A DNA stretch of 24,122 nucleotides from a virus. The stretch spans positions 1-24,122 of the IMG/VR virus record IMGVR_UViG_3300034072_000002; one strand, written 5' to 3'. This document shows, piece by piece, positions 4,598 to 21,341 of this stretch. The notes beneath the pieces are model-generated. The model was not told the DNA's origin, made no database searches, and saw only the letters and a program-made list of their open reading frames with translations. Numbering within the stretch: position 1 is the stretch's first letter; every line of letters starts with the position of its first letter. The translations under genes were made by a program, and so were the position numbers.

Positions 4598-4642
4598 CCG
4601 CATTTTGCGGTGCGCGTGACTCCGGGCACGTTTAAATCCCGG
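4598..4642 (+). promoter_or_regulatory. Two hairpins upstream of the co-chaperonin gene
   Basis: Hairpin one is CCGCA-TTT-TGCGG (4598-4610). Hairpin two pairs CCGGG (4622-4626) with CCCGG (4638-4642) around an 11-base loop containing GTTTAAAT. The second stem ends four bases before the GAGG ribosome site (4646-4649). It could influence translation of the GroES-like gene. Neither has a T run, so termination is unlikely. Confidence 0.4.
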
Positions 4643-4653
4643 TGCGAGGAAAT

Positions 4654-5001
4654 ATGTCTGAAAAACTAGCGAGTCAGTTACCGAAACCCACTGGTTACAA
4701 ACTGCTCATTGCGCTTCCTGACCCTGAGGAGAAGACCGAAGGCGGGATCATTAAGGCTTCCCAGACTCTTCAAGCCGAAGAGATCGGAAGCATCGTCGGG
4801 TTCGTCCTAGAGATGGGACCTGATGCATACCAATCCCAAGAGCGATTCCCCACAGGACCGTACTGTAAAAAGGGAGATTGGATCATGATGAGATCCTACT
4901 CCGGTACGCGCTTTAAGGTTCATGGCAAAGAGTTCCGTTTAATCAACGACGACAGCGTAGAAGCCGTAGTCGAAGATCCAAGGGGCGTGGCAAAGGTATG
5001 A
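4654..5001 (+). CDS. GroES-like co-chaperonin (Cpn10)
   Basis: This is a phage version of the GroEL lid. The 115-residue frame from ATG 4654 follows GAGG at 4646. A GTG at 4642 would add four residues with no ribosome site. Residues 13-20 (TGYKLLIA) match the first GroES strand. EEKTEGGII (25-33) corresponds to the mobile loop, whose GGI-hydrophobic tip binds GroEL. GSIVGFVLEMGPDAY and CKKGDWIMMRSYSGTRFKVHG follow the Cpn10 beta-barrel order. No GroEL gene is present, so it would act with host GroEL. T4 gp31 does this to fold its capsid protein. Its position before scaffold and capsid genes supports the same job here, by analogy. It overlaps the next gene by ATGA. It is somewhat longer than cellular GroES. 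Confidence 0.88.
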   Translation: MSEKLASQLPKPTGYKLLIALPDPEEKTEGGIIKASQTLQAEEIGSIVGFVLEMGPDAYQSQERFPTGPYCKKGDWIMMRSYSGTRFKVHGKEFRLINDDSVEAVVEDPRGVAKV

Positions 5002-7338: not shown

Positions 7339-8247
7339 ATGGCTATTTCACGCGCACAAATGTTGAAGGAACTCCTGCCGGGGCTTAACGCGCTCTTCGG
7401 TTTGGAGTATGCCAAGTATGAGGATGAGCACACGCTCATCTATGAGACTGAGACCTCGGAGAAGGCATTCGAAGAGGAAGTCAAGTTGTCCGGTTTTGGT
7501 ACTGCCCCGGTTAAGGCCGAAGGCGCTGCCATTGCTTACGACAACGCTCAGGAGGCTTTCACCGCTCGTTACAACCACGAGACGATTGCCATGGGCTTTT
7601 CGATTACGGAAGAAGCCATGGAGGACAACCTCTATGACCAACTTTCGGCTCGTTACACCAAGGCTCTCGCCCGTGGTATGGCCAACACCAAGCAGGTGAA
7701 GGCAGCGGCCCTCTTGAACAATGGCTTCACGACCTTCCAGTCTGGCGACGGTGTGACCCTGTTCAGCACGGCTCATCCGCTCGTCTCTGGTGGCACGAAT
7801 GCCAACCGCCCGACTGTCGGTGCCGACCTCAATGAGACCTCGCTTGAAGACGCGATCATTTCGATTGCGAACTTCGTTGACGAGCGTGGCCTCCTCATTG
7901 CGGCTCGTCCCCGTCGTCTCGTGGTGCCGTCGCAGTTGATGTTCGTTGCCGAGCGCCTCATGGAGACCACTCTCCGTACGGCGACTGCCGACAACGATAT
8001 CAACGCGATCCGTAACATGGGCGCTATCCCGGAAGGCTATGCGGTCAACCATTATCTGACCGATACCAACGCCTTCTTCATCATCACTGACGTACCGAAT
8101 GGCATGAAGCACTTCGTCCGTACGCCGATGACGACGAGCATGGATGGCGACTTCGATACGGGCAACGTCCGTTACAAGGCTCGCGAGCGTTATTCGTTCG
8201 GTGTCTCGGACCCGCTTGGCATCTATGGATCTCCGGGTTCGGCCTGA
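7339..8247 (+). CDS. Major capsid protein, HK97 fold (Mu gpT-like)
   Basis: This is the shell protein of the icosahedral head. The 302-residue frame starts nine bases after AAGGAG (7324-7329), a strong site. It has the layout of Mu gpT-like capsid proteins: an N-terminal helix (LKELLPGLNALFGLEY), a central FSITEEAMEDNLYDQLSARY segment, and the LFSTAHPLVSGG motif near 140-151, which is typical of this group. DERGLLIAARPRRLVVPSQL and a C-terminal RARERYSFG-like segment (YKARERYSFGVSDPLGIYGS) follow. No long N-terminal delta domain is present, which agrees with a separate scaffolding gene upstream. An intrinsic terminator follows directly. The 254-residue antisense frame across it is a codon-bias shadow. 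Confidence 0.92.
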   Translation: MAISRAQMLKELLPGLNALFGLEYAKYEDEHTLIYETETSEKAFEEEVKLSGFGTAPVKAEGAAIAYDNAQEAFTARYNHETIAMGFSITEEAMEDNLYDQLSARYTKALARGMANTKQVKAAALLNNGFTTFQSGDGVTLFSTAHPLVSGGTNANRPTVGADLNETSLEDAIISIANFVDERGLLIAARPRRLVVPSQLMFVAERLMETTLRTATADNDINAIRNMGAIPEGYAVNHYLTDTNAFFIITDVPNGMKHFVRTPMTTSMDGDFDTGNVRYKARERYSFGVSDPLGIYGSPGSA

Positions 8248-8324: not shown

Positions 8325-8363
8325 AAAAGTTAAAAATGGCACGAGCAACACCATTGGATATTG

Positions 8364-8376
8364 TGTATGCCATACA
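8364..8376 (+). promoter_or_regulatory. Inverted repeat over the homing endonuclease start codon
   Basis: TGTATGCCATACA is a 13-base palindrome with a central C, and the proposed ATG (8367-8369) lies inside it. As RNA it can form a five-pair stem with a GCC loop that hides the start codon. As DNA it could be an operator for the protein's own C-terminal DNA-binding domain. Translational or autogenous repression is known for phage T4 homing endonucleases. Here it is inferred. Confidence 0.35.
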
Positions 8377-8957
8377 AGATTGATGTTTGCGGAATCTACA
8401 AAATCGTCAATAAAGTGACTGGGCAGTGCTATGTCGGGCAATCGCAACGAGTTAAAAAACGATTGAAGGAGCATTTCAGGCTTCTTCGTTGGAATAAACA
8501 TACGAACCCACACTTACAGAATGCCTATAACAAATACGGGGCATCTGCGTTTTACGGAGATATTGAAGTTGAATGCTCTAATCTTGACGAATTAGACCAG
8601 TTGGAAAATGAGTTTTTGCAAGGTACTGCTTGGTTTGAAGAACCGACTGTATACAACATCGCAGATTTTGCTAAAGCCCCAATGCGAGGAAAACAGCACT
8701 CCGAAGAAGTTCGGGAGCGTATTCGGTTAGGTAGAAGGGCTAGTACTTTTGATTTTCGTAGTCCGGAATACAGAGCAACGCTATCCAAAGCACAAATGGC
8801 TCGTTTTCACGCGGACCCAAAATTCATAGCAAAATTGAAATTTATTGTGGAGAATCCTCATCTAACGTATGCTGAACGCGCTAGAAGTCTTGGATCTGAT
8901 ACGAGTTCAGTACGTCGTCTTGCGTTAAAGTATCAGCATCTTAAAGGAGTTTTATAA
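8367..8957 (+). CDS. Freestanding GIY-YIG homing endonuclease
   Basis: A site-specific DNA nuclease that spreads its own gene. Numbering is from ATG 8367 (196 aa). A TTG at 8361 is less likely. The catalytic domain shows GIY (9-11), YVG (22-24), the arginine of QRVKKRLKEH (R28/R32), the glutamate in DQLENEFL (E80/E82) and the asparagine of VYN (N97). All conserved positions are thus present and the enzyme is probably active. GKQHSEEVRERIRLG (about 109-123) is a NUMOD3-type DNA-binding motif. LTYAERARSLGSDTSSVRRLA looks like a C-terminal helix-turn-helix, giving the I-TevI domain order. The gene is visibly richer in A+T than its neighbours and interrupts the structural genes right after the capsid terminator. 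Its last codons supply AAAGGAG for the next gene and its stop overlaps that start (TAATG). Confidence 0.93.
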   Translation: MPYKIDVCGIYKIVNKVTGQCYVGQSQRVKKRLKEHFRLLRWNKHTNPHLQNAYNKYGASAFYGDIEVECSNLDELDQLENEFLQGTAWFEEPTVYNIADFAKAPMRGKQHSEEVRERIRLGRRASTFDFRSPEYRATLSKAQMARFHADPKFIAKLKFIVENPHLTYAERARSLGSDTSSVRRLALKYQHLKGVL

Positions 8958-9819: not shown

Positions 9820-10101
9820 ATGGCCAAAGATCCGGTCCTTAAACGTATCGGGGTTGCTGGCTACAACAAGCCTAAGCGCACCCCTAGTCATCCCACTAAG
9901 TCCCATGTGGTGGTGGCTAAGTCTGGCGATCAAGTAAAGACCATTCGCTTCGGACAACAAGGAGTCTCAGGTTCCCCGAGAAAAGCCGGGGAATCTGAGT
10001 CTTACCGAAACCGACGTGAATCGTTTAAAGCCCGACACGCCAAGAACATTTCCAAAGGCAAGATGAGCGCAGCCTACTGGGCTGACAAGGTTAAGTGGTA
10101 A
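9820..10101 (+). CDS. Conserved small basic phage protein (AYWADKVKW family)
   Basis: A 93-residue, strongly basic protein. Two blocks, NKPKRTPSHPTKSHVVVAKS and VKTIRFGQQGVSGSPRKAGE, are followed by a C-terminal block ending RHAKNISKGKMSAAYWADKVKW. I recognise this pattern from small proteins widespread in phage structural regions, but I know of no function. The lysine/arginine content suggests nucleic-acid contact, and the Trp-rich end suggests a small folded core. It starts three bases after the previous stop with only a weak ribosome site (GGTAAG). It opens the cassette of seven tightly packed tiny genes. Confidence 0.78.
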   Translation: MAKDPVLKRIGVAGYNKPKRTPSHPTKSHVVVAKSGDQVKTIRFGQQGVSGSPRKAGESESYRNRRESFKARHAKNISKGKMSAAYWADKVKW

Positions 10102-10107
10102 CCGGCC

Positions 10108-10362
10108 ATGGAAATGATGATTTGGAACATGATTCTGACCTTTATCGTGGCGATTCTGGGTTGGGTTGTGAAAGACAAGTTTGCCGAACTGCAACGCCTT
10201 GGGATTCTTCTCAACAGAACCCGAGAGGAAGTTGCCAGAGATCACATCACGAGAGCCGAGGTCCGAGCAGATTCTCAGATGCTGCTTGACCGACTGGATC
10301 GGCTGGAACAAAAGATTGATCGCATCGCAACCAACATGGCTACAGGTGATCGTCGTGGCTAA
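10108..10362 (+). CDS. Small membrane protein with cytoplasmic coiled coil
   Basis: An 84-residue protein. Residues about 4-21 (MIWNMILTFIVAILGWVV) form one membrane helix. The rest is a charged coiled coil (REEVARDHITRAEVRADSQM, LLDRLDRLEQKIDRIATNM). One membrane helix plus coiled coil is seen in phage lysis accessory proteins, such as inner-membrane spanins, and in some minor virion membrane proteins. No signal-anchor cleavage site is obvious and no partner outer-membrane spanin is seen. Its neighbour at 10524 also has membrane segments, so both may act at the cell membrane. In-frame ATGs at 10114 and 10117 are possible alternative starts. Confidence 0.72.
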   Translation: MEMMIWNMILTFIVAILGWVVKDKFAELQRLGILLNRTREEVARDHITRAEVRADSQMLLDRLDRLEQKIDRIATNMATGDRRG

Positions 10363-10540
10363 AGCCAAAAGCAAAGTAAACGCAGCCGGTAACTACACCA
10401 AGCCCGAGATGCGTAAAGCATTGTTCAACCAGATCAAGGGCGCTGCTGTGCAGGGAACCAAGGCTGGCCAATGGTCAGCCCGTAAAGCACAACTGCTTGC
10501 CAAGAAATACAAGGAGAAGGGCGGTGGATACCGGGACTGA
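10355..10540 (+). CDS. Tiny basic protein (GQWSARKAQLLAKKY family)
   Basis: A 61-residue protein from GTG 10355, preceded by AGGTGAT (10344-10350) at suitable distance and overlapping the end of the previous gene by eight bases. The frame is open further upstream to an ATG at 10181, but that part reads as out-of-frame shadow of the coiled-coil gene. The sequence TKPEMRKALFNQIKGAAVQG followed by GQWSARKAQLLAKKYKEKGG is a pattern I recognise from small conserved phage proteins of unknown function. It is helical and very basic. A DNA- or RNA-binding role is inference. Confidence 0.75.
   Translation: MAKAKSKVNAAGNYTKPEMRKALFNQIKGAAVQGTKAGQWSARKAQLLAKKYKEKGGGYRD
10511..10526 (+). promoter_or_regulatory. 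Shine-Dalgarno AAGGAG selecting GTG 10524
   Basis: AAGGAG (10511-10516) lies seven bases before GTG 10524-10526, inside the previous gene. The in-frame TTG at 10497 has no ribosome site, so 10524 is the better start. Confidence 0.6.
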
Positions 10541-10937
10541 TCTTGAGTTATTTAAGGCGCAGGTCCAAGCCGAACTAAATCGGCTTGAAGCCAAGTCGTC
10601 TGCCAAGGAAGTCGCTGGGAAGGCTATTGGCAAAGACGGACTCAAGTACATCACCGCCATTGTGGTGATCGGTGTTCTTTCCAGTCTGGCATTGGATTCG
10701 GAAAAGATTGCGGCAGTGATGGGTCTTTTAGGCGCATCGCTGACTGCCCTGATTTCCATGTTGGCCAGCATTGCTGGAGCCAGCGAAAAGGAAGAGAAGC
10801 CAGAGTTTGCTGTTATCAAGGAACTCATTGGCAAACTGGACAAGTTGGACCGTAAAGAGCAGCCCATGAAAGTGGATGTTGAGAACGGCCATGTCACCGT
10901 GACCAAGGGCGACGATGTCGTTAAGGCAAGTCGATGA
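10524..10937 (+). CDS. Two-helix membrane protein, holin-like candidate
   Basis: A 137-residue protein from GTG 10524, overlapping the preceding gene by 17 bases. After a short acidic/charged helix (LELFKAQVQAELNRLEAK) come two membrane segments, about 42-57 (YITAIVVIGVLSSLAL) and 62-85 (IAAVMGLLGASLTALISMLA region). A hydrophilic, partly charged tail follows (EKEEKPEFAVIKELIGKLDK). Two closely spaced membrane helices and a charged C-terminus are compatible with a class II-type holin. No endolysin gene is nearby in this window, so the assignment is weak. A membrane-associated virion or ejection protein is the alternative. The gene ends in an ATGA overlap with the next gene. Confidence 0.7.
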   Translation: MDTGTDLELFKAQVQAELNRLEAKSSAKEVAGKAIGKDGLKYITAIVVIGVLSSLALDSEKIAAVMGLLGASLTALISMLASIAGASEKEEKPEFAVIKELIGKLDKLDRKEQPMKVDVENGHVTVTKGDDVVKASR

Positions 10938-11179
10938 AGTCACCGCAGCAATCCTTGAAGGCTTGGACTGCTCAGAAATGGAGAACCAAAAGTGGTAAGC
11001 CATCTAGTCAAACAGGCGAAAGATATCTTCCAGAGGCTGCGATCAAGGCTCTTTCCCCAGCCGAGTACGCCAGAACCACCGCCGCCAAGCGAAAAGGTAA
11101 AGCGCAAGGCAAGCAGTTCGTCGCGCAACCGAAAGGCATCGCGAAAAAAGTAAGACCGTTTAGACAACGAGGTAAGTGA
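10934..11179 (+). CDS. Small basic conserved phage protein (ERYLPEAAIKALSPAEY family)
   Basis: An 81-residue, highly basic protein beginning in ATGA overlap with the membrane protein gene. SLKAWTAQKWRTKSGKPSSQ, then TGERYLPEAAIKALSPAEYA, then a Lys/Arg-rich tail (TTAAKRKGKAQGKQF, AKKVRPFRQRGK). I recognise this layout from small proteins shared by many phages, including T4-like cyanophages. Their role is not known to me. The middle block is predicted helical and both ends look flexible and basic. Nucleic-acid binding is plausible but unproved. Confidence 0.78.
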   Translation: MKSPQQSLKAWTAQKWRTKSGKPSSQTGERYLPEAAIKALSPAEYARTTAAKRKGKAQGKQFVAQPKGIAKKVRPFRQRGK

Positions 11180-11180
11180 C

Positions 11181-11420
11181 ATGGCGATCTCCAGAGCCAA
11201 CATGGCCCAGCAGATTGAGAAGCCGGGTAAGGTTCGCAAGGTCATGCGCGAGTTCAAAGAAGGAACTCTGCATTCCGGCAGTAAGAAAGGGCCTGTGGTG
11301 AAGAACCGTAAGCAGGCTATTGCTATTGCTCTTTCTGAGGCTGGCATGAGTAAGCCTGAGAAGAAGGCAATGGGCGGTCGTATTGATGGCTGCGCTATGC
11401 GCGGTTTGACGAGGGGCTAA
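11181..11420 (+). CDS. Small basic phage protein (RKQAIAIALSEAG family) with GGRIDGCA tail
   Basis: A 79-residue protein one base after the previous stop, with GAGG upstream. GKVRKVMREFKEGTLHSGS followed by KNRKQAIAIALSEAGMSKPE is a conserved small phage/bacterial pattern, often catalogued as a domain of unknown function (I believe DUF6496). It resembles a helical nucleic-acid-binding motif. The last 15 residues, GGRIDGCAMRGLTRG, are shared with the C-terminus of the next gene (GGRIDGCAIKGKTKG). The shared tail looks like a common peptide module joined to unrelated bodies. Confidence 0.8.
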   Translation: MAISRANMAQQIEKPGKVRKVMREFKEGTLHSGSKKGPVVKNRKQAIAIALSEAGMSKPEKKAMGGRIDGCAMRGLTRG

Positions 11421-11422
11421 TC

Positions 11423-11734
11423 ATGATGAAAGGAATGGGATTGCTCTCTTCCCTCATGGGAAGAAAGATGGGCAAGATGAACGGCAAAGATTCCAGTGTC
11501 TCCATCACCATTGAAAAGGAGATGGATGAGTCTGATGACATGATGGGGGGCGGCATGACTAAGTACGCAGAGGGCGGCAGCCTTAAGATGGTAGATAAAG
11601 GCGGACAGAAAGTTCCGTTCTTTGCTGCCGATGGGAAAGGCAAGATGATGGCTGGTGGCCCAGTAAAGTACGCCAAGGGCGGACGCATTGACGGCTGCGC
11701 CATCAAGGGCAAGACCAAGGGCACCTACCGGTAA
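11423..11734 (+). CDS. Met/Gly/Lys-rich small protein with GGRIDGCA tail
   Basis: A 103-residue low-complexity protein, with GAGG just upstream. The tandem ATGs at 11423 and 11426 are both possible starts. The N-terminus is Met/Gly/Lys-rich (MMKGMGLLSSLMGRKMGKMN), and an acidic patch (EKEMDESDDMMGGG) follows. Two similar short motifs, KYAEGGSLK and KYAKGGRID, flank a middle segment (KGGQKVPFFAADGKGKMM). The protein ends GGRIDGCAIKGKTKGTYR, repeating the tail of the preceding gene. No membrane helix or enzyme motif is seen. The composition is that of a small virion-associated or disordered protein. I do not know its function. The stop overlaps the next start (TAATG). Confidence 0.72.
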   Translation: MMKGMGLLSSLMGRKMGKMNGKDSSVSITIEKEMDESDDMMGGGMTKYAEGGSLKMVDKGGQKVPFFAADGKGKMMAGGPVKYAKGGRIDGCAIKGKTKGTYR

Positions 11735-12438
11735 TGGCTACCAGCGGCACAGCGACGTTTAATCCGGACTTCGCCGAGATCGTCGAAGAGGCGTACGAGC
11801 GTGCCGGTCTGGAATTGCGTACAGGCTACGACCTGAGAACTGCCCGTCGATCCATGAACTTCATGGCTCAGGAATGGCAGAACAGGGGTATCAATCTTTG
11901 GACTGTCGCGACGGGGACCCAGTCTCTGACTGCAGGCGTGTATACCTACACGATGCCCTCTGACACTATCGATTTGATTGAACATCAGTTGCGTATCTAT
12001 GATGGCAATCAGACGATGCAGGCCGACTACAGCATGGCCCGTATCTCGGTCTCCGACTACGCCATGCTCAACAACAAGTTGACCCAAGGCCGTCCGCTTC
12101 AGATCTATGTGGATCGTCAGCGAGACGCGCCGATTGTCTACTTGTGGCCAGTTCCCGATAACGTCCAGCAGTACACGCTGGCCTATTGGTACATCAGGCG
12201 TATTCAGGACGTGGGTGCTGGTGGAACCAATACCATGGACGTGCCAGCCCGATTCCTGCCTTGCTTGGTGGCAGGATTGGCTTACTACATTGCCATGAAG
12301 AAGCCCGAAGCAGCAGATCGTATTCCGTTGCTGAAGTCTGAATACGAAGCGCAGTTTGAGTTGGCGGCAGGTGAAGACCGTGACAAGGCTGCTTCACGGT
12401 TCCTTCCGTACATCTCTAGCGTCACCGGAGGAGGATAA
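11734..12438 (+). CDS. Head-tail connector / tail accessory protein (P22 gp4-like)
   Basis: A 234-residue protein. The N-terminal helix pair FAEIVEEAYERAGLELRTGY then DLRTARRSMNFMAQEWQNRG, followed by INLWTV, is the pattern of short-tailed phage connector proteins that bind under the portal. The middle is beta-rich (SLTAGVYTYTMPSDTIDLIE, PLQIYVDRQRDAPIVYLWPV). The C-terminal part is helical (FLPCLVAGLAYYIAMKKPEA), ending in a glycine tail. P22 gp4 has the same arrangement of four helices with an extended C-terminus. The start overlaps the previous stop (TAATG). It lies two genes upstream of a second adaptor-like protein. The connector role is well supported by type and context. Exact homology to gp4 is moderate. 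Confidence 0.78.
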   Translation: MATSGTATFNPDFAEIVEEAYERAGLELRTGYDLRTARRSMNFMAQEWQNRGINLWTVATGTQSLTAGVYTYTMPSDTIDLIEHQLRIYDGNQTMQADYSMARISVSDYAMLNNKLTQGRPLQIYVDRQRDAPIVYLWPVPDNVQQYTLAYWYIRRIQDVGAGGTNTMDVPARFLPCLVAGLAYYIAMKKPEAADRIPLLKSEYEAQFELAAGEDRDKAASRFLPYISSVTGGG

Positions 12439-12801: not shown

Positions 12802-13443
12802 ATGAATTACTCACAACTCTCTACGCTCATTCAGGAATACTGCCAATCGACGGAAACGTCGTTCGTGGCCAATATCCCGAACTTCGTCCAGTTGGCCGAA
12901 GAGCGGATCTACAACTCGGTTCAGATCCCGGCCCTCCGCAAAACTTCCACTGCTTCAGCAGTGATCGGCAATCAGTACATGTCGCTGCCATCAGACTGGC
13001 TGGCAACATTCTCGTTGGCGGCGATCAACCCATCGACTGGCGTTTACACGTTCCTTCTGAACAAGGACGTGAACTTCATGCGGGAATGTTTCACCACCGC
13101 AACAACTTCGGGTGCGCCTGCGTATTACGCTGTTTGGGACAACGACACCATGTTGTTGGGTCCAACTCCAAACCTCGCGTACACCTTGGAACTGAATTAC
13201 TACTACTACCCGGTATCCATCGTGGATGCGGGAACCTCGTGGCTCGGCACTAACTTTGAGACAGTTCTTCTCTACGGATCACTCCGTGAGGCTTACACCT
13301 ATCTCAAGGGTGAGGCGGACATGGTCGCCGCCTACGAGCAGAAGTACCAAGAAGCACTGGCTCAGATTGATCGCCTTGGCGATGGTCTGGATCGTCAGGA
13401 TGCATATCGTTCAGGTCAGGTCAGACTTCCGGTGAGGACATGA
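12802..13443 (+). CDS. Head-tail adaptor protein (SU10 adaptor-like)
   Basis: A 213-residue protein starting directly after the palindrome GTTTAAAC (12794-12801), with no clear Shine-Dalgarno. The sequence YSQLSTLIQEYCQSTETSFV, then VQLAEERIYNSVQIPALRKT, then YMSLPSDWLATFSLA and LLNKDVNFMRECF, and later TSWLGTNFETVLLYGSLREA is characteristic of a widespread phage adaptor family typified by phage SU10. In that family the ring binds under the portal and anchors the tail nozzle or fibres. A C-terminal helix (AYEQKYQEALAQIDRLG) and the end DAYRSGQVRLPVRT also fit. The gene overlaps the next by ATGA. Confidence 0.85.
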   Translation: MNYSQLSTLIQEYCQSTETSFVANIPNFVQLAEERIYNSVQIPALRKTSTASAVIGNQYMSLPSDWLATFSLAAINPSTGVYTFLLNKDVNFMRECFTTATTSGAPAYYAVWDNDTMLLGPTPNLAYTLELNYYYYPVSIVDAGTSWLGTNFETVLLYGSLREAYTYLKGEADMVAAYEQKYQEALAQIDRLGDGLDRQDAYRSGQVRLPVRT

Positions 13444-15551: not shown

Positions 15552-15923
15552 GCGAATCCAAACATTGTCAGCGTTTCCGCAATCTACGGGAACAACTCAC
15601 TGACATCACTATCTACCACGAACGCAACGGCTATCGTGAACAATGCTGCATCTAGCGGCAAGGTCTTTAAGATCAACAGCATCATCGTGGCGAACGTGGA
15701 TGGTACTTCTGCTGCTGACATTACGATCAATGTTTACAGTCAGGATGACCTAGGTGGCACGGCTTATGCGCTGGCTTCCACAGTATCTGTTCCTGCTGAT
15801 GCGACGTTAGTAGTGATTGACAAGAACACTTCAATCTACTTGAAGGAAGATCAATCTATTGGTGCGACGGCTGGCACGGCCAGCGATCTTGTTGTTGTCG
15901 CTTCTTGGGAAGAGATCAACTAA
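15549..15923 (+). CDS. Small beta-rich fibre-associated protein
   Basis: A 124-residue protein from ATG 15549, with GGAGG (15537-15541) seven bases upstream. The reading frame is open to an ATG at 15504 inside the previous gene, but that extension is a shadow. Alternating hydrophobic strands and Ser/Thr/Asn/Ala richness (GKVFKINSIIVANVDGTSAA, DLGGTAYALASTVSVPADAT) suggest a beta-sandwich virion part. It ends with VVVASWEEIN, and the stop overlaps the glycine-rich gene's start (TAATG). A base or collar for that fibre is a reasonable inference. No named family is recognised. Confidence 0.75.
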   Translation: MANPNIVSVSAIYGNNSLTSLSTTNATAIVNNAASSGKVFKINSIIVANVDGTSAADITINVYSQDDLGGTAYALASTVSVPADATLVVIDKNTSIYLKEDQSIGATAGTASDLVVVASWEEIN

Positions 15924-17644
15924 TGACCCTGCGATATACAGGCGGAGTCATACGAGCGGCTGCGCCTACAGTTAATGCTTCTTCTGCAAAAGGAGTTTGG
16001 CTATTAAGTCAGGCTTTGCCTTACCGTGCTGCGGGAACATGGCCGCAACCAACTATTACTATTATTCAAACATTCCTTGCTTCCGGAACTTGGACTGCTC
16101 CTGCTGACGTAACTGAAGTTGAGTACCTTGTTGTCGCTGGTGGCGGCGGTGGTGGCGGTAATGACGCGCTAGTAGGTGCTTCTGCCGGTGCTGGTGGCGC
16201 TGGTGGTTTTAGAACCGGAACAGGGTTCAGCGTGACGGCTGGCACCGACTACACTATTACAGTCGGTGGTGGTGGAGCGTCAGGCACAGGAAACAATCCC
16301 GGTGCCGCAGGCAGCGATTCTGTCTTCAGCACCATTACCTCAACTGGCGGTGGATTAGGCGCAAAGGGTACTGCTCCCGGCGGCACATCTGGCGGCAATG
16401 GCGGGTCAGGTGGTGGCGGCACGGGAACTGCTGGCGGCGGCAATGGCAATACACCAAGCACCGCGCCTGCACAGGGCAACAATGGCGGTGGGTCAAGTTA
16501 TAGCGCCCCGAACTATGGTTCTGGAGGCGGCGGTGGCGCGTCTGCCGTTGGTTCTGCTGGCACATCTTCCGCTGGCGGCGATGGCGGTGCTGGCACAGCG
16601 TCGTCAATCTCTGGCGGTTCCGTTACTTATGCCGGTGGTGGTGGCGGCGGTAATGCTGGTAGCACTCGCTCAAGCGGCGGCGCTGGCGGCGGCGGCGGTG
16701 GTGGCACAAACACAGCGCCTAATCGTGACGGTATTGCGGGAACCGCAAACACAGGCGGTGGTGGCGGTGGCGGTGGAATCAACCCCAACGTGCCGTACAC
16801 ACCTTACGCAGCGGGCGGCGCAGGCGGCTCCGGTATTGTTGTCCTCAAATACACTGCTCCAGCAACCACAACCATATTCACATTTAAATCTACGCAGAAA
16901 TGGGTAGCACCAATTAACGCTGTCAGCGTTGATTACCTTGTCGTTGCTGGAGGCGGTGGGGGCGGTGCTGGAAATGGTGTTTGTGGACACGGTGGCGGAG
17001 GAGCAGGCGGATTCCGCACAGGAACCGGTTTAAGTATTACTGGAGGCACCGAGTACACTATTACTATTGGTGCTGGCGGCGCAGGCACAACAAATGCCCC
17101 GACAAGTGGTGCAGATTCAGTATTTAGCACGATTACATCCACAGGCGGTGGTCGCGGTGGATACTACAACGGGTCAAGTCAATTTGACGGAGCAACGGGC
17201 GGTTCTGGTGGTGGCGGGGGCTTTACCGCACCAAATTCAGGAGGCGCAGGTAACACGCCTAACACTTCGCCCTCACAAGGAAATAATGGCGGCGCAGGCG
17301 TTAATAACTTTCCTACTATTCGCGCTGGCGGTGGGGGTGGCGGGGCTGGTGCTGTAGGTGCCGCCGCTGGTGGAACTGCTGGCGCTGGTGGCGATGGAAC
17401 TGTGTCAGCCATCAGTGGATCTTCCGTAACCTATGCCGGTGGCGGAGGCGGTGGCGCATCACCCGGAACTGCTGCATCTGGCGGTAATGGAGGTGGCGGT
17501 GCCGGAGGTTCAAGTGCTGCGGGGACAAGCGGGACCGCTAACACGGGCGGTGGCGGTGGTGGTGCTGGTGCAAATGGCCCCGGTGCTGGACCTAATGGTG
17601 GTTCCGGCGGTTCCGGTATCGTGATCCTAAAAGTAAACTATTAA
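15923..17644 (+). CDS. Glycine-rich adhesin-type protein with two modules
   Basis: A 573-residue protein from ATG 15923 (TAATG overlap). A TTG at 15905 would add six residues. After about 50 residues come two copies of a roughly 260-residue glycine-rich module. Each begins with an 18-residue beta lead-in (FLASGTWTAPADVTEVEY, FKSTQKWVAPINAVSVDY) and continues YLVVAGGGGGG, then GGFRTGTG, YTITVGGGG, DSVFSTITSTGGG, NTP-S-QGNNGG, VTYAGGGGGG and ANTGGGGGG, closing at GGSGIVVLK or GGSGIVILK. Polyglycine of this kind is known in phage S16 adhesin gp38, where it packs as polyglycine II helices. It also occurs in glycine-rich domains of phage tail fibres. Adhesion is inferred. The length is a whole-module multiple. 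Confidence 0.85.
   Translation: MTLRYTGGVIRAAAPTVNASSAKGVWLLSQALPYRAAGTWPQPTITIIQTFLASGTWTAPADVTEVEYLVVAGGGGGGGNDALVGASAGAGGAGGFRTGTGFSVTAGTDYTITVGGGGASGTGNNPGAAGSDSVFSTITSTGGGLGAKGTAPGGTSGGNGGSGGGGTGTAGGGNGNTPSTAPAQGNNGGGSSYSAPNYGSGGGGGASAVGSAGTSSAGGDGGAGTASSISGGSVTYAGGGGGGNAGSTRSSGGAGGGGGGGTNTAPNRDGIAGTANTGGGGGGGGINPNVPYTPYAAGGAGGSGIVVLKYTAPATTTIFTFKSTQKWVAPINAVSVDYLVVAGGGGGGAGNGVCGHGGGGAGGFRTGTGLSITGGTEYTITIGAGGAGTTNAPTSGADSVFSTITSTGGGRGGYYNGSSQFDGATGGSGGGGGFTAPNSGGAGNTPNTSPSQGNNGGAGVNNFPTIRAGGGGGGAGAVGAAAGGTAGAGGDGTVSAISGSSVTYAGGGGGGASPGTAASGGNGGGGAGGSSAAGTSGTANTGGGGGGAGANGPGAGPNGGSGGSGIVILKVNY
16073..17641 (+). repeat. Two tandem glycine-rich modules
   Basis: Copy one runs 16073-16882 and copy two 16883-17641. 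The matching EVEY/SVDY points are 810 bases (270 residues) apart. Both keep the frame and the same motif order, but diverge strongly at the nucleotide level outside the GGN-rich runs. This is a protein repeat, not a recent DNA duplication. Confidence 0.85.
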
Positions 17645-17661: not shown

Positions 17662-18123
17662 ATGGCTAACGTAATCAATGCCCAAAACGGGATCGTATCG
17701 ACCGCAGATTCAACGTCTGAGTTAAACATTCAGACAGGCGGTGTCACGGCCATTTCAATTGGCTCAAGCCAATCCGTTACTATCTCCAACCTATCTGACT
17801 CGGTTGGCAATCTTCGCAACATTCCATCAGCCGGTGCAGCCAAAACAACGGCTTATACCCTCACCATCTCTGATATCGGTGAGTTTGTTACGGTTGGAAC
17901 CAGCGGCAGTATCACGGTCGTCAATGATGTGTTCAGTGCAGGCAACGCTGTCTCTATCTACAACAACACATCCGGTAACGTCACACTGACCATGAGCATC
18001 ACGACGGCTTATATCGCGGGAACCGATTCCGACAAAGCCACGATGACTCTGGCAACTCGGGGTCTGGCGACACTGCTATTCTTGTCTGCTTCAGCCGTGG
18101 TTGTTACGGGGAACGTCACCTAA
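17662..18123 (+). CDS. Small beta-rich fibre-associated protein
   Basis: A 153-residue protein, with GAGG (17651-17654) seven bases upstream. The segment LRNIPSAGAAKTTAYTLTIS then DIGEFVTVGTSGSITVVNDV resembles a domain common in phage tail-fibre regions, with the pattern LRNIP...AYTL..SD.G. The chain is almost free of charged residues and beta-rich. It ends VVVTGNVT and overlaps the next start (TAATG). It sits before the larger glycine-rich protein just as 15549-15923 sits before the smaller one, but the two small proteins do not look homologous. Probably a fibre or fibre-base part. Confidence 0.75.
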   Translation: MANVINAQNGIVSTADSTSELNIQTGGVTAISIGSSQSVTISNLSDSVGNLRNIPSAGAAKTTAYTLTISDIGEFVTVGTSGSITVVNDVFSAGNAVSIYNNTSGNVTLTMSITTAYIAGTDSDKATMTLATRGLATLLFLSASAVVVTGNVT

Positions 18124-21100
18124 TGTCCGGCATCATGATGCTTTTGCTGGCGCGTGTCGTCGGCACTAGATATGTTGAAGTCAAAACCTTTACGACTTCA
18201 GGCTCGTGGGTGTGTCCTACTGGCGTGAGCGAAGTTGAGTATCTCGTCGTTGCTGGCGGCGGTGGTGGTGGATTCGATGCTGGTGGGGGCGGCGGTGCTG
18301 GAGGGTTTAGGACTGGCACTGGATATTCTGTAACAGCAGGAAACACCTATACAGTTACTGTTGGAAGTGGTGGGGCTGGAGCATCAACGGCTGCTCGTGG
18401 ATCAAGTGGGAATGATTCGGCGTTTGATACCATCACCAGCACGGCTGGGGGTGGAGGTGGTTCCTATTCATCACCAGCAAATGCAAATATAAATAATGGC
18501 GGCAATGGTGGTTCTGGTGGCGGTGGAGGAGTTGCTACATCAGCAGGAACCGGCGGCAGCGGCAATACTCCGGTTACATCCCCCTCACAAGGATCAAATG
18601 GAGGGAATGGTGCGTACCCTGCTTACAGCGGCGGCGGAGGTGGTGGGGCTAGTGCAACCGGATCAAATGGCAGCACAGGCGGCGGTAATGGCGGTGCTGG
18701 TACAGCCTCAACAATTTCTGGCGTATTTACTTATTATGCTGGCGGCGGCGGTGGGGCTGATGGTGACCCCGGATCTGGATCTGGTGGCGCAGGAGGTGCA
18801 GGAGGCGGCGGAGATGGAGGTACTGGCGCAGTAGCGGGCGGTAACGGAACCGTAAATACAGGCGGGGGCGGCGGTGGTGGTGATTCGCCGGGTGTAGGCG
18901 GCGCAGGCGGCTCCGGCATCGTCATTCTTCGCTACGCAGTACCTGTCCAGACCGTAGTTCAGTCATTCACTGCATCCGGAATCTTTGTTCCGCCGACTGG
19001 TGTGAGCGAGGTTGAATATCTCGTCGTTGCGGGTGGTGGCGGCGGTGGCGGCGCTAACGCTCCGCACGGCGGTGGCGCTGGTGGCGGTGCCGGTGGGTTT
19101 AGGACAGGAACCGGGTTTAGCGTAACTGCTGGAACTAACTACACCGTCACAATCGGTGGCGGCGGCTCTGGAGGAAGTGGTAGTTCAAATACCGGATCAT
19201 CTGGTTCTAATTCAGTATTTTCTACAATAACTTCTGCTGGTGGAGGCGGCGGTGGCGCAACAACCACCGCGACAGCAAGAAACGGCCTGAGCGGTGGATC
19301 AGGCGGCGGCGGGTCAGGCAGTGCTGGAACAAGCGGAACCGGCGGCTCTGGAAACACGCCTAGCACTTCTCCAAGCCAAGGAAGCAATGGAGGAAACGGC
19401 TTAACAGACGGCGCTACTTACGATAACGGGGGTGGCGGCGGCGGTGCGTCTGCAACTGGAGCAAATGCCACATCAGCCGGTGGAGGCAATGGGGGCGCGG
19501 GTACTGCATCGTCAATCTCTGGCGGCAGCGCGACTTATGGCGGCGGCGGTGGTGGCAGCGGATATGGTGAGTACGGCCTGTCTCAAGGCACAGGCGGCGC
19601 AGGCGGCGGCGGCAATGCTGGTTCTGCTGGAACCGCTAACACAGGCGGCGGTGGCGGTGGAGCAACCGTTTCAACAGGCGCAGCAGGCGGCTCCGGCATC
19701 GTCATCATCAAATACACACTGGGTACTGCTTCGATCCTGACGTTCAACTCAACCACCAACTTTGTGATGCCTGCTGGCGTGACGAGCGTGGACTACCTCG
19801 TGGTTGCGGGTGGTGGCGGAGGTGGTAATAACGGCGCACAGCAAGGCGGCGGCGGTGGCGCTGGAGGTATGCGTACCGGAACGGGGTTAACCGTTACACC
19901 GGGATCTACTTACACGATCACCGTTGGCGGTGGTGGCACGGCTGGAACAACCGGAAACGGTGGAAACGGCAACAATTCAATCTTCAGCACCGTAACGTCA
20001 ACCGGTGGTGGTGGGGGTGGGCAACGTCAAACTGCTGGAAACAACGGCGGTTCTGGTGGTGGCGGTGGAGATGCTGGGCCGGGATCAACGGGCGGCGCTG
20101 GCGGTTCTGGAAATACCCCAGCCACGTTCCCCTCACAAGGTAGCAATGGCGGTCGCGGGGGGAACATTAGTTTTGGTGGCGGCGGTGGGGGCGGTGGCGC
20201 TTCTGCTGTTGGTAGCAATGGTGCAGACAGCAACCCGACTAGTGGCGGTAATGGTGGCGCAGGTACAGCGTCATCAATTTCTGGTGGCTCCGTTACCTAC
20301 GCTGGCGGTGGCGGCGGCGCTGCTGGAACCGGAACTGCTGGAACCGGGGGTGCTGGCGGCGGTGGTCGCGGCGCTGTGTATAACGGTGGAAGCGGAGAAT
20401 CTGCCGTTGAAGGTACGGCCAACACCGGAGGTGGAGGTGGGGGTGGATCAACCGGCGGCGCTACTCCATCCAGTGCAGGCAAGGCAGGTGGCTCCGGCGT
20501 AGTCATCCTGAAGTTGAACTTCAACAATTACCTGCTTTACACCTTCACTTCGACGCAATCGTGGACGGCTCCGGCTGGTGCGGTGAGCGTGGATTATTTG
20601 GTTGTAGCCGGTGGTGGTGGAGGTGGTAAGGCCCGTGGTGGTGGCGGTGGAGCCGGGGGATTTAGAACTGGTACAGGTTTATCAATTACTGCCGGTCAGT
20701 CTTACACTATTACTGTTGGCGCGGGTGGCGCTGGAGCAACATCTAACAACGTAACCGCTCCGAATGGATCTGATTCCGTATTCAGCACTATCACATCAAC
20801 AGGTGGCGGTGGCGGTGCCGGTACACTAAGCACTTACGGAACTACCTTAAATGGTGCTAACGGTGGCTCTGGCGGTGGCGCGTCTGGAAATCCAACTCCT
20901 GCGGGAGCGGGAGGGACCGGTGGCTCTGGCAATACTCCGTCAACAAATCCATCGCAAGGCAATAACGGTGGAAAGACATATTCGGATAATCTGAATTACA
21001 CCTCTTCTGGCGGTGGCGGCGGTGCATCTGCTGTTGGTGCTGACGCAGGTGTAAGACAATGTGGTAACGGCGGTGATGGTTCAACGTCTGCTATTAGCGG

Positions 21101-21341
21101 TTCTTCTGTAACTTATGCTGGCGGCGGCGGTGGCGGTGGAGACGGAGCGGGAACTCCCGGAGGAAATGCTGCTGGAACAGGTGGTGCTGGAGGCGGTGGC
21201 GCGGGATCAACAACTACAACAGCAACCGCTGGAACGGCTAACACAGGCGGCGGTGGCGGTGGCTCTGGTGGTGGCAACCCATCAAATCCAAATGGCGCAG
21301 CAGGCGGTTCAGGTATCGTAATTCTCAAGGTGAATTTCTAA
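18123..21341 (+). CDS. Giant glycine-rich adhesin-type protein with four modules
   Basis: A 1072-residue protein from ATG 18123. After a short hydrophobic start (MSGIMMLLLARVVGTRYVEV), four modules follow at about residues 23, 282, 541 and 808. They open FTTSGSWVCPTGVSEVEY, FTASGIFVPPTGVSEVEY, FNSTTNFVMPAGVTSVDY and FTSTQSWTAPAGAVSVDY, each then reading LVVAGGGGGG. Each module repeats GG(F/M)RTGTG, YT(I/V)TVG, STITST/SAGGG, GNTP, QG(S/N)NGG, VTYAGGGGGG and NTGGGGGG, and closes with GGSGIVILRY, GGSGIVIIKY, GGSGVVILKL or GGSGIVILKV. Module spacing is 259, 259 and 267 residues. The hydrophobic start is not a clean signal peptide. The layout suggests stacked polyglycine II sandwiches on beta supports forming a long host-binding rod. 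The stop overlaps the next gene. Confidence 0.87.
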   Translation: MSGIMMLLLARVVGTRYVEVKTFTTSGSWVCPTGVSEVEYLVVAGGGGGGFDAGGGGGAGGFRTGTGYSVTAGNTYTVTVGSGGAGASTAARGSSGNDSAFDTITSTAGGGGGSYSSPANANINNGGNGGSGGGGGVATSAGTGGSGNTPVTSPSQGSNGGNGAYPAYSGGGGGGASATGSNGSTGGGNGGAGTASTISGVFTYYAGGGGGADGDPGSGSGGAGGAGGGGDGGTGAVAGGNGTVNTGGGGGGGDSPGVGGAGGSGIVILRYAVPVQTVVQSFTASGIFVPPTGVSEVEYLVVAGGGGGGGANAPHGGGAGGGAGGFRTGTGFSVTAGTNYTVTIGGGGSGGSGSSNTGSSGSNSVFSTITSAGGGGGGATTTATARNGLSGGSGGGGSGSAGTSGTGGSGNTPSTSPSQGSNGGNGLTDGATYDNGGGGGGASATGANATSAGGGNGGAGTASSISGGSATYGGGGGGSGYGEYGLSQGTGGAGGGGNAGSAGTANTGGGGGGATVSTGAAGGSGIVIIKYTLGTASILTFNSTTNFVMPAGVTSVDYLVVAGGGGGGNNGAQQGGGGGAGGMRTGTGLTVTPGSTYTITVGGGGTAGTTGNGGNGNNSIFSTVTSTGGGGGGQRQTAGNNGGSGGGGGDAGPGSTGGAGGSGNTPATFPSQGSNGGRGGNISFGGGGGGGGASAVGSNGADSNPTSGGNGGAGTASSISGGSVTYAGGGGGAAGTGTAGTGGAGGGGRGAVYNGGSGESAVEGTANTGGGGGGGSTGGATPSSAGKAGGSGVVILKLNFNNYLLYTFTSTQSWTAPAGAVSVDYLVVAGGGGGGKARGGGGGAGGFRTGTGLSITAGQSYTITVGAGGAGATSNNVTAPNGSDSVFSTITSTGGGGGAGTLSTYGTTLNGANGGSGGGASGNPTPAGAGGTGGSGNTPSTNPSQGNNGGKTYSDNLNYTSSGGGGGASAVGADAGVRQCGNGGDGSTSAISGSSVTYAGGGGGGGDGAGTPGGNAAGTGGAGGGGAGSTTTTATAGTANTGGGGGGSGGGNPSNPNGAAGGSGIVILKVNF
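18189..21338 (+). repeat. Four tandem glycine-rich modules
   Basis: Copies run 18189-18965, 18966-19742, 19743-20543 and 20544-21338. The first two spacings are exactly 777 bases and the third is 801. Loops between glycine runs vary in length and sequence, while the GTGxS, TITST and IVILK frame elements stay. Copy openings fall into two types, EVEY (copies 1 and 2) and SVDY (copies 3 and 4). The same two types occur as copies 1 and 2 of the upstream gene. Confidence 0.87.

Follow-up and report, generated by a model that had tools for sequence, protein, structure and literature searches.

A recurrent C-terminal peptide on small basic proteins in the head module of an uncultured phage lineage, a possible tag for virion loading

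In an uncultured phage, two small proteins encoded between the capsid and connector genes have a C-terminal peptide in common, and related peptides close many otherwise unrelated proteins of one structural lineage. We consider it almost certain that this tail is a real, movable protein module. Sequence comparison confirms that it is C-terminal and lineage-specific, that it is gained and lost on the same protein, and that its type follows the structural genes. The best overall explanation, to which we give about even weight, is that the tail serves as an address tag for loading proteins into virions. A literature search returned no published description of such tails, its two text matches being unrelated papers, and no virion proteome of a tagged phage.

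The stretch of DNA analysed here (the window) is a complete viral record of 24,122 bases from an uncultured phage and carries a head-to-tail module. The head-module genes run in the order terminase, a gene for a 74-residue protein, portal, GroES, putative scaffold, capsid, a GIY-YIG gene, a cassette of small genes and two SU10-type adaptors. The features relevant to this analysis are as follows.

1715-1939, + strand: 74-residue basic protein in the terminase–portal interval, with a class-2 tail at its end
1883-1936, + strand: class-2 C-terminal tail of the 74-residue protein, GTARGMGAAKKGGKFTDL
7339-8247, + strand: major capsid protein (Phage_capsid_4/Mu gpT-like), left border of the cassette
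9820-10101, + strand: 93-residue basic protein, stand-alone form of a DUF5754-like small domain (phrog_7595, E = 6e-41)
10108-10362, + strand: 84-residue protein with an N-terminal membrane helix and a probable coiled coil (KD19 maximum 2.22; phrog_462, E = 3e-7)
10355-10540, + strand: 61-residue basic protein of the phrog_17747 family, GTG start (17 cultured phage records)
10524-10937, + strand: 137-residue acidic protein (pI 5.5) with two hydrophobic segments, GTG start (rare, 7 fetched loci)
10934-11179, + strand: 81-residue very basic protein (pI 11.5) of the phrog_14910 family (19 cultured phage records)
11181-11420, + strand: 79-residue DUF6496 protein (PF20106, E = 1.7e-11) with a class-1 tail at its end
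11373-11417, + strand: class-1 C-terminal tail of the 79-residue protein, GGRIDGCAMRGLTRG
11423-11734, + strand: 103-residue Gly/Met/Lys-rich protein with five [YFMLIV]xxGG motifs and a class-1 tail at its end
11678-11731, + strand: class-1 C-terminal tail of the 103-residue protein, GGRIDGCAIKGKTKGTYR (41.5 bits, top match in the capsid-anchored set)
11734-12438, + strand: SU10-type adaptor protein (PF24175, E = 1e-16), right border of the cassette
12802-13443, + strand: second SU10-type adaptor protein (PF24175, E = 2e-27; solved SU10 adaptor 7z47, E = 5e-5)

Both adaptors score above the curated PF24175 cut-off. Three further features of the window deserve mention. Directly 3' of the capsid gene, a GIY-YIG domain protein (8361-8957; PF01541, E = 1e-6) is probably a homing endonuclease. 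The GroES co-chaperonin gene within the head module (4642-5001) is also found in the relatives Pag-Yong1, HTVC023P, HTVC027P, DSL-LC04, psg01, CRP-902 and QDWS535. Two very Gly-rich proteins of 579 and 1072 residues (15905-17644 and 18123-21341), built of repeated 'VEYLVVAGGGGGG' units, are likely tail or adhesin proteins.

An earlier note on this DNA had described a tight cassette of seven small genes at 9820-11734, and the location and lengths (93, 84, 61, 137, 81, 79 and 103 residues) are confirmed. Three junctions overlap by 4–17 nt, the remaining gaps measure 1–6 nt, and the first adaptor gene (start 11734) begins at the final base of the stop codon of the 103-residue gene. The note's description of the proteins also holds. 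Five of the seven (93, 61, 81, 79 and 103 residues) are strongly basic, with a pI of 9.7–11.5 and a net charge of +8 to +18; hydrophobic segments occur in two, one of them N-terminal in the 84-residue protein and two in the 137-residue protein; and small phage families are matched by the 93-residue (phrog_7595), 61-residue (phrog_17747), 81-residue (phrog_14910) and 79-residue (Pfam DUF6496) proteins, the last scoring 44.8 bits against a curated cut-off of 24.

The 93-residue protein provides a link to known head proteins. The family phrog_220, 'minor head protein and DNA pilot', matches 26 of its 29 homologues (best E = 6e-20), the small domain matching part of that family, in which it is embedded. 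The window protein itself does not match the DUF5754 (PF19058) model, which only 4 of the 29 homologues match (best E = 1.7e-4). Its AlphaFold2 model (pLDDT 87) is a hairpin with two helices; a structure search gave no match in the PDB, and the viral structure matches include segments of phage proteins that bear XkdF and ChaB annotations. Part of the cassette thus has a sequence-level tie to head proteins.

The families of the 61- and 81-residue proteins travel together. Among cultured records, all from marine phages, 16 of the 17 with the former also carry the latter (19 records in all). Across 41 capsid-to-connector loci, 25 have both families, 11 have neither, and single occurrences number 1 and 4 (Fisher p = 5e-6, uncorrected for kinship). 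HMO-2011, CRP-9, HTVC034P and HTVC103P share the 61- and 81-residue genes and have no tails in the regions scanned. The earlier proposal that the strictly clustered cassette is a cooperating set stands in part: head-module position, the common C-terminal tag and co-occurrence speak for cooperation, but the strictness is lost, since gene content differs widely among relatives, some of which retain the 93-, 61- and 81-residue genes without any tagged protein. Among the roles that had been suggested for such a set, DNA-condensing or ejected virion proteins would fit best, given the late head-module position, the tag, the co-occurrence and the presence of the 93-residue domain in a head/pilot family.

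A lysis unit had been suggested as well. Here the 84- and 137-residue proteins would be holin- or spanin-like and the basic genes hitch-hikers. The two proteins do have membrane segments, in CRP-902 a homologue of the 84-residue protein is encoded two genes away from a peptidase, and in CRP-9 and ICBM2 homologues of the 93-residue protein have endolysins in their vicinity. However, the cassette and neighbouring genes scanned in the window include no recognisable endolysin or other lytic enzyme, and the common tails, which neither membrane protein has and which non-membrane proteins bear, would be left unexplained. As a description of the entire set the claim is unsupported, only these two proteins could qualify, and we consider it extremely unlikely. 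The 84-residue protein is nonetheless a conserved cassette member, with homologues in 68 fetched loci; the 137-residue protein matches no PHROGs family at E 0.1.

The C-terminal peptide itself was overlooked in the earlier note. The class-1 form, GG-R-IDGCA-x-[RK]-G-x-T-[RK]-G, closes both the 79- and the 103-residue proteins; the window tails read GGRIDGCA[MI][RK]G[LK]T[RK]G, to which the 103-residue protein adds TYR. Beside the portal gene, the 74-residue protein ends in a peptide related to that of class 1, RGMGAAKKGGKF (RGMGAAKKGGKFTDL). In public viral contigs at least four kinds of tail occur, with a core approximating RGxGx[AV]: class 2 is RGMGAA-x-[RK]-GG, class 3 is RGCG-[AK]-VM-xx-RRK and class 4 is RGGGMARMKPTKLY. 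Among the matches listed, the stop codon lies 6–7 residues past the motif in 81 class-2 matches, 7 or 11 residues past it in 101 of 120 class-3 matches, and exactly 3 residues past it in all 28 class-4 matches. A class-4 tail, ARGGGMARMKPTKLY, forms the exact C terminus in 28 of 28 cases in the terminase–portal interval of loci L477-L504. In one protein family a variant of the class-2 motif is N-terminal (MAGRGMGAA.RGGGAV...GP; L472:15016-15243 of DSL-LC04 and class-2 loci such as L287, L302 and L266), and the DSL-LC04 member of this family lies upstream of the adaptor gene. Another common module, LKMV.K.G.KVPFFAADGKGKM, is found in class-1 and class-2 tagged proteins (L274, L261, L213, L181 and window 11423-11734). 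A reading of GxxxxGKT as a P-loop was set aside, the Lys being variable (K/R/H/L) and no NTPase family being matched.

Several results establish the tail as a protein-level feature. Scanning IMG/VR with the class-1 pattern at the DNA level yielded at least 120 contigs, and of 171 in-frame matches in the contigs listed the stop follows exactly 3 residues past the motif in 128 and immediately in 21; such counts come from fragmentary contigs, are inflated by near-identical ones and are uncorrected for kinship. An unbiased set was obtained from loci fetched solely by their capsid gene and searched with HMM tail models at a threshold of at least 9 bits. The 6,190 plus-strand ORFs gave 62 matches, of which 60 lay no more than 25 residues from the stop, whereas the 8,915 minus-strand ORFs gave none. 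The class-1 pattern matched 22 times in 14 larger records, versus none for a reversed control. The strand and reversed-pattern controls rule out chance or composition as the origin of the tails. In bacterial and archaeal genomes, 257 Gb in all, the DNA pattern matched three times, never in the frame that gives the motif. Tail-only tblastn queries proved too insensitive. Finally, every synonymous codon is in use at the conserved tail residues, indicating that the constraint acts on the protein and ruling out a DNA-level element at gene ends.

The proteins that carry the tails are diverse. Their N-terminal parts fall into 93 BLAST clusters, that is, otherwise unrelated bodies with common tails, although this count is approximate because the proteins are of low complexity. 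At the cassette locus, orthologues of the DUF6496 protein have a class-1 tail, variant tails or none, and a bacterial DUF6496 protein has none; the AlphaFold model of the DUF6496 protein predicts a helical core followed by a disordered tail. For a 268-residue tagged protein, a guess of ADP-ribosyltransferase likeness found no Pfam support. A 65-residue ORF with a strong class-3 tail (L473:7844-8041; 47 bits) is absent from the annotation of phage 023Pt_psg01.

The tagged proteins are basic almost without exception (pI above 9 in 99%), and 95% remain so once the tail is removed. Together with the very basic 93-, 61- and 81-residue partners, this would suit late condensing or packaging helpers that bind DNA or RNA, the Gly/Lys/Arg-rich tail being a nucleic-acid contact and not a docking tag. 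Yet the tail is fixed in sequence beyond its composition (D-G-C/I-A and invariant G and T positions), keeps a constant distance from the stop and has a class that tracks the capsid lineage, and on balance nucleic-acid binding by the tail seems unlikely.

In class-1 tagged proteins [YFML]xxGG motifs are five-fold more frequent than in shuffled sequences and lie directly before the tail in 175 of 214 cases; the large polyvalent protein of Pag-Yong1 has no xGG motif. The tail could accordingly be an assembly or maturation signal on scaffold-like factors that sit on the portal or adaptor and undergo cleavage at [YFM]xxGG, so that fragments alone stay in the virion. Adenovirus core proteins undergo a somewhat similar cleavage. 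The position of the tail genes next to portal, capsid and adaptor genes agrees with this scheme, but a Pfam scan of ten head-module and neighbouring window proteins revealed no protease and the xGG repeats are possibly plain linkers, so that we regard it as quite improbable.

The tails belong to a single structural lineage. Of 120 listed contigs selected solely by the class-1 DNA pattern, 118 contain homologues of the window's structural genes. In all 168 tail–capsid pairs (most counted through two capsid queries) both genes share a strand, and the tail gene lies 1.1–6.7 kb downstream of the capsid gene. Classes 2, 3 and 4 are part of the same lineage: class 2 is located next to the portal gene or in the stretch from cassette to adaptor genes, class 3 in the capsid–adaptor interval or near a needle gene, and class 4 between terminase and portal. 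An assignment of RGCGxVM tails to T4-like cyanophages proved wrong, as those tails fall in the window's own lineage. Tails also occur in relatives that are cultured or deposited: Planktothrix phage Pag-Yong1 (tagged protein UMO75986.1), Pelagibacter phage HTVC023P (tagged gp32, QGZ17661.1) and 023Pt_psg01, in which the tailed ORF is unannotated. About a third of the capsid-to-connector loci (14 of 41) lack a recognisable tail, and the tail is thus inessential to this capsid type.

Tail class also follows capsid phylogeny, with 2 changes on a 101-row capsid tree versus 32.6 when shuffled, a match that could reflect common descent alone. Classes 1 and 3 were never seen on one contig among those examined. 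A test for concerted evolution of the tails in one genome showed none: two tails from one contig resemble each other no more than tails of different contigs do, which also argues against fine-scale co-evolution with one receptor per genome. The association with structural genes bears on a further explanation, in which the tail binds a host protein and its carriers are late or ejected takeover factors with a common host target. One tail on many unrelated bodies, the small accessory nature of the proteins and the LysM domains present in two of them are compatible with this. However, tail class follows the phylogeny of the phage capsid, and in every class the tails occur beside structural genes; a host-directed function is, in our view, very unlikely.

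What leads us to favour docking and loading is that a short conserved peptide forms the flexible end of many unrelated proteins, is restricted to one structural lineage and stays beside head genes. The capsid–adaptor interval would then be a variable cargo locus of a lineage with a Mu gpT-like capsid and SU10-type adaptors, comprising semi-conserved small proteins (93, 84, 61 and 81 residues) and changing basic, mostly disordered ones. Many of the latter, along with others beside the portal gene, would be marked by their R-G-x-G-x-[A/V]-like end. One head or portal component may recognise the tail, so that its carriers are built into the virion, and the tagged proteins would probably be released into the host along with the DNA; both packaging and ejection we infer. 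DNA binding would fall to the basic bodies, and the [YFM]xxGG repeats may represent further binding or cleavage sites. More tentatively, we propose that a swappable tag of the RGxGx[AV] type loads changing small basic proteins into the virions of a widespread uncultured lineage, and that new cargo is recruited by gain of a tail. If the tail is a loading tag, protein ends would reveal virion-borne proteins in phages that are mostly uncultured, those of unknown function included. The hypothesis can be tested directly in at least two deposited isolates.

Known systems offer several points of comparison. Escherichia phage SU10 (Kuravirus) shares the adaptor family of the window's two connector genes, and its head–tail module is without a comparable cassette: by gene number, gp10 alone separates capsid gp9 from adaptor gp11, and the ejection proteins are gp20-24 (PMC9509320). 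Phage polyvalent proteins are likewise encoded beside late virion genes, and their travel in the virion has been inferred from that position; they are multidomain, often large and enzymatic, whereas the tailed proteins are mostly small, of low complexity and basic (PMC5512222).

The internal head proteins of T4 are placed in the prohead by a terminal signal, and many are ejected into the host; this capsid targeting sequence is N-terminal and is removed by gp21 (PMC9026906). The window lineage resembles T4 in having several small basic proteins of the head module with a common short terminal signal. Unlike in T4, its candidate signal is C-terminal in nearly all matches, the exception being the one N-terminal class-2 family, and occurs on dozens of protein types; the ten scanned window proteins match no protease family. 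Encapsulin cargo-loading peptides are also short, conserved, mostly C-terminal, borne by unrelated cargo and encoded beside an HK97-type shell gene, with the consensus SDGSLGIGSLKRS (PMC8346489). The 93 clusters with common tails repeat this arrangement of a short conserved peptide ending unrelated proteins, with a consensus that differs from that of encapsulins, and, unlike encapsulin systems, the window lineage is one of phages that often have several tagged proteins per genome. The T4 capsid targeting sequence and the C-terminal cargo peptides of encapsulins are the nearest precedents for docking and loading, and the tail, if it does load virions, would be a C-terminal phage counterpart to both.
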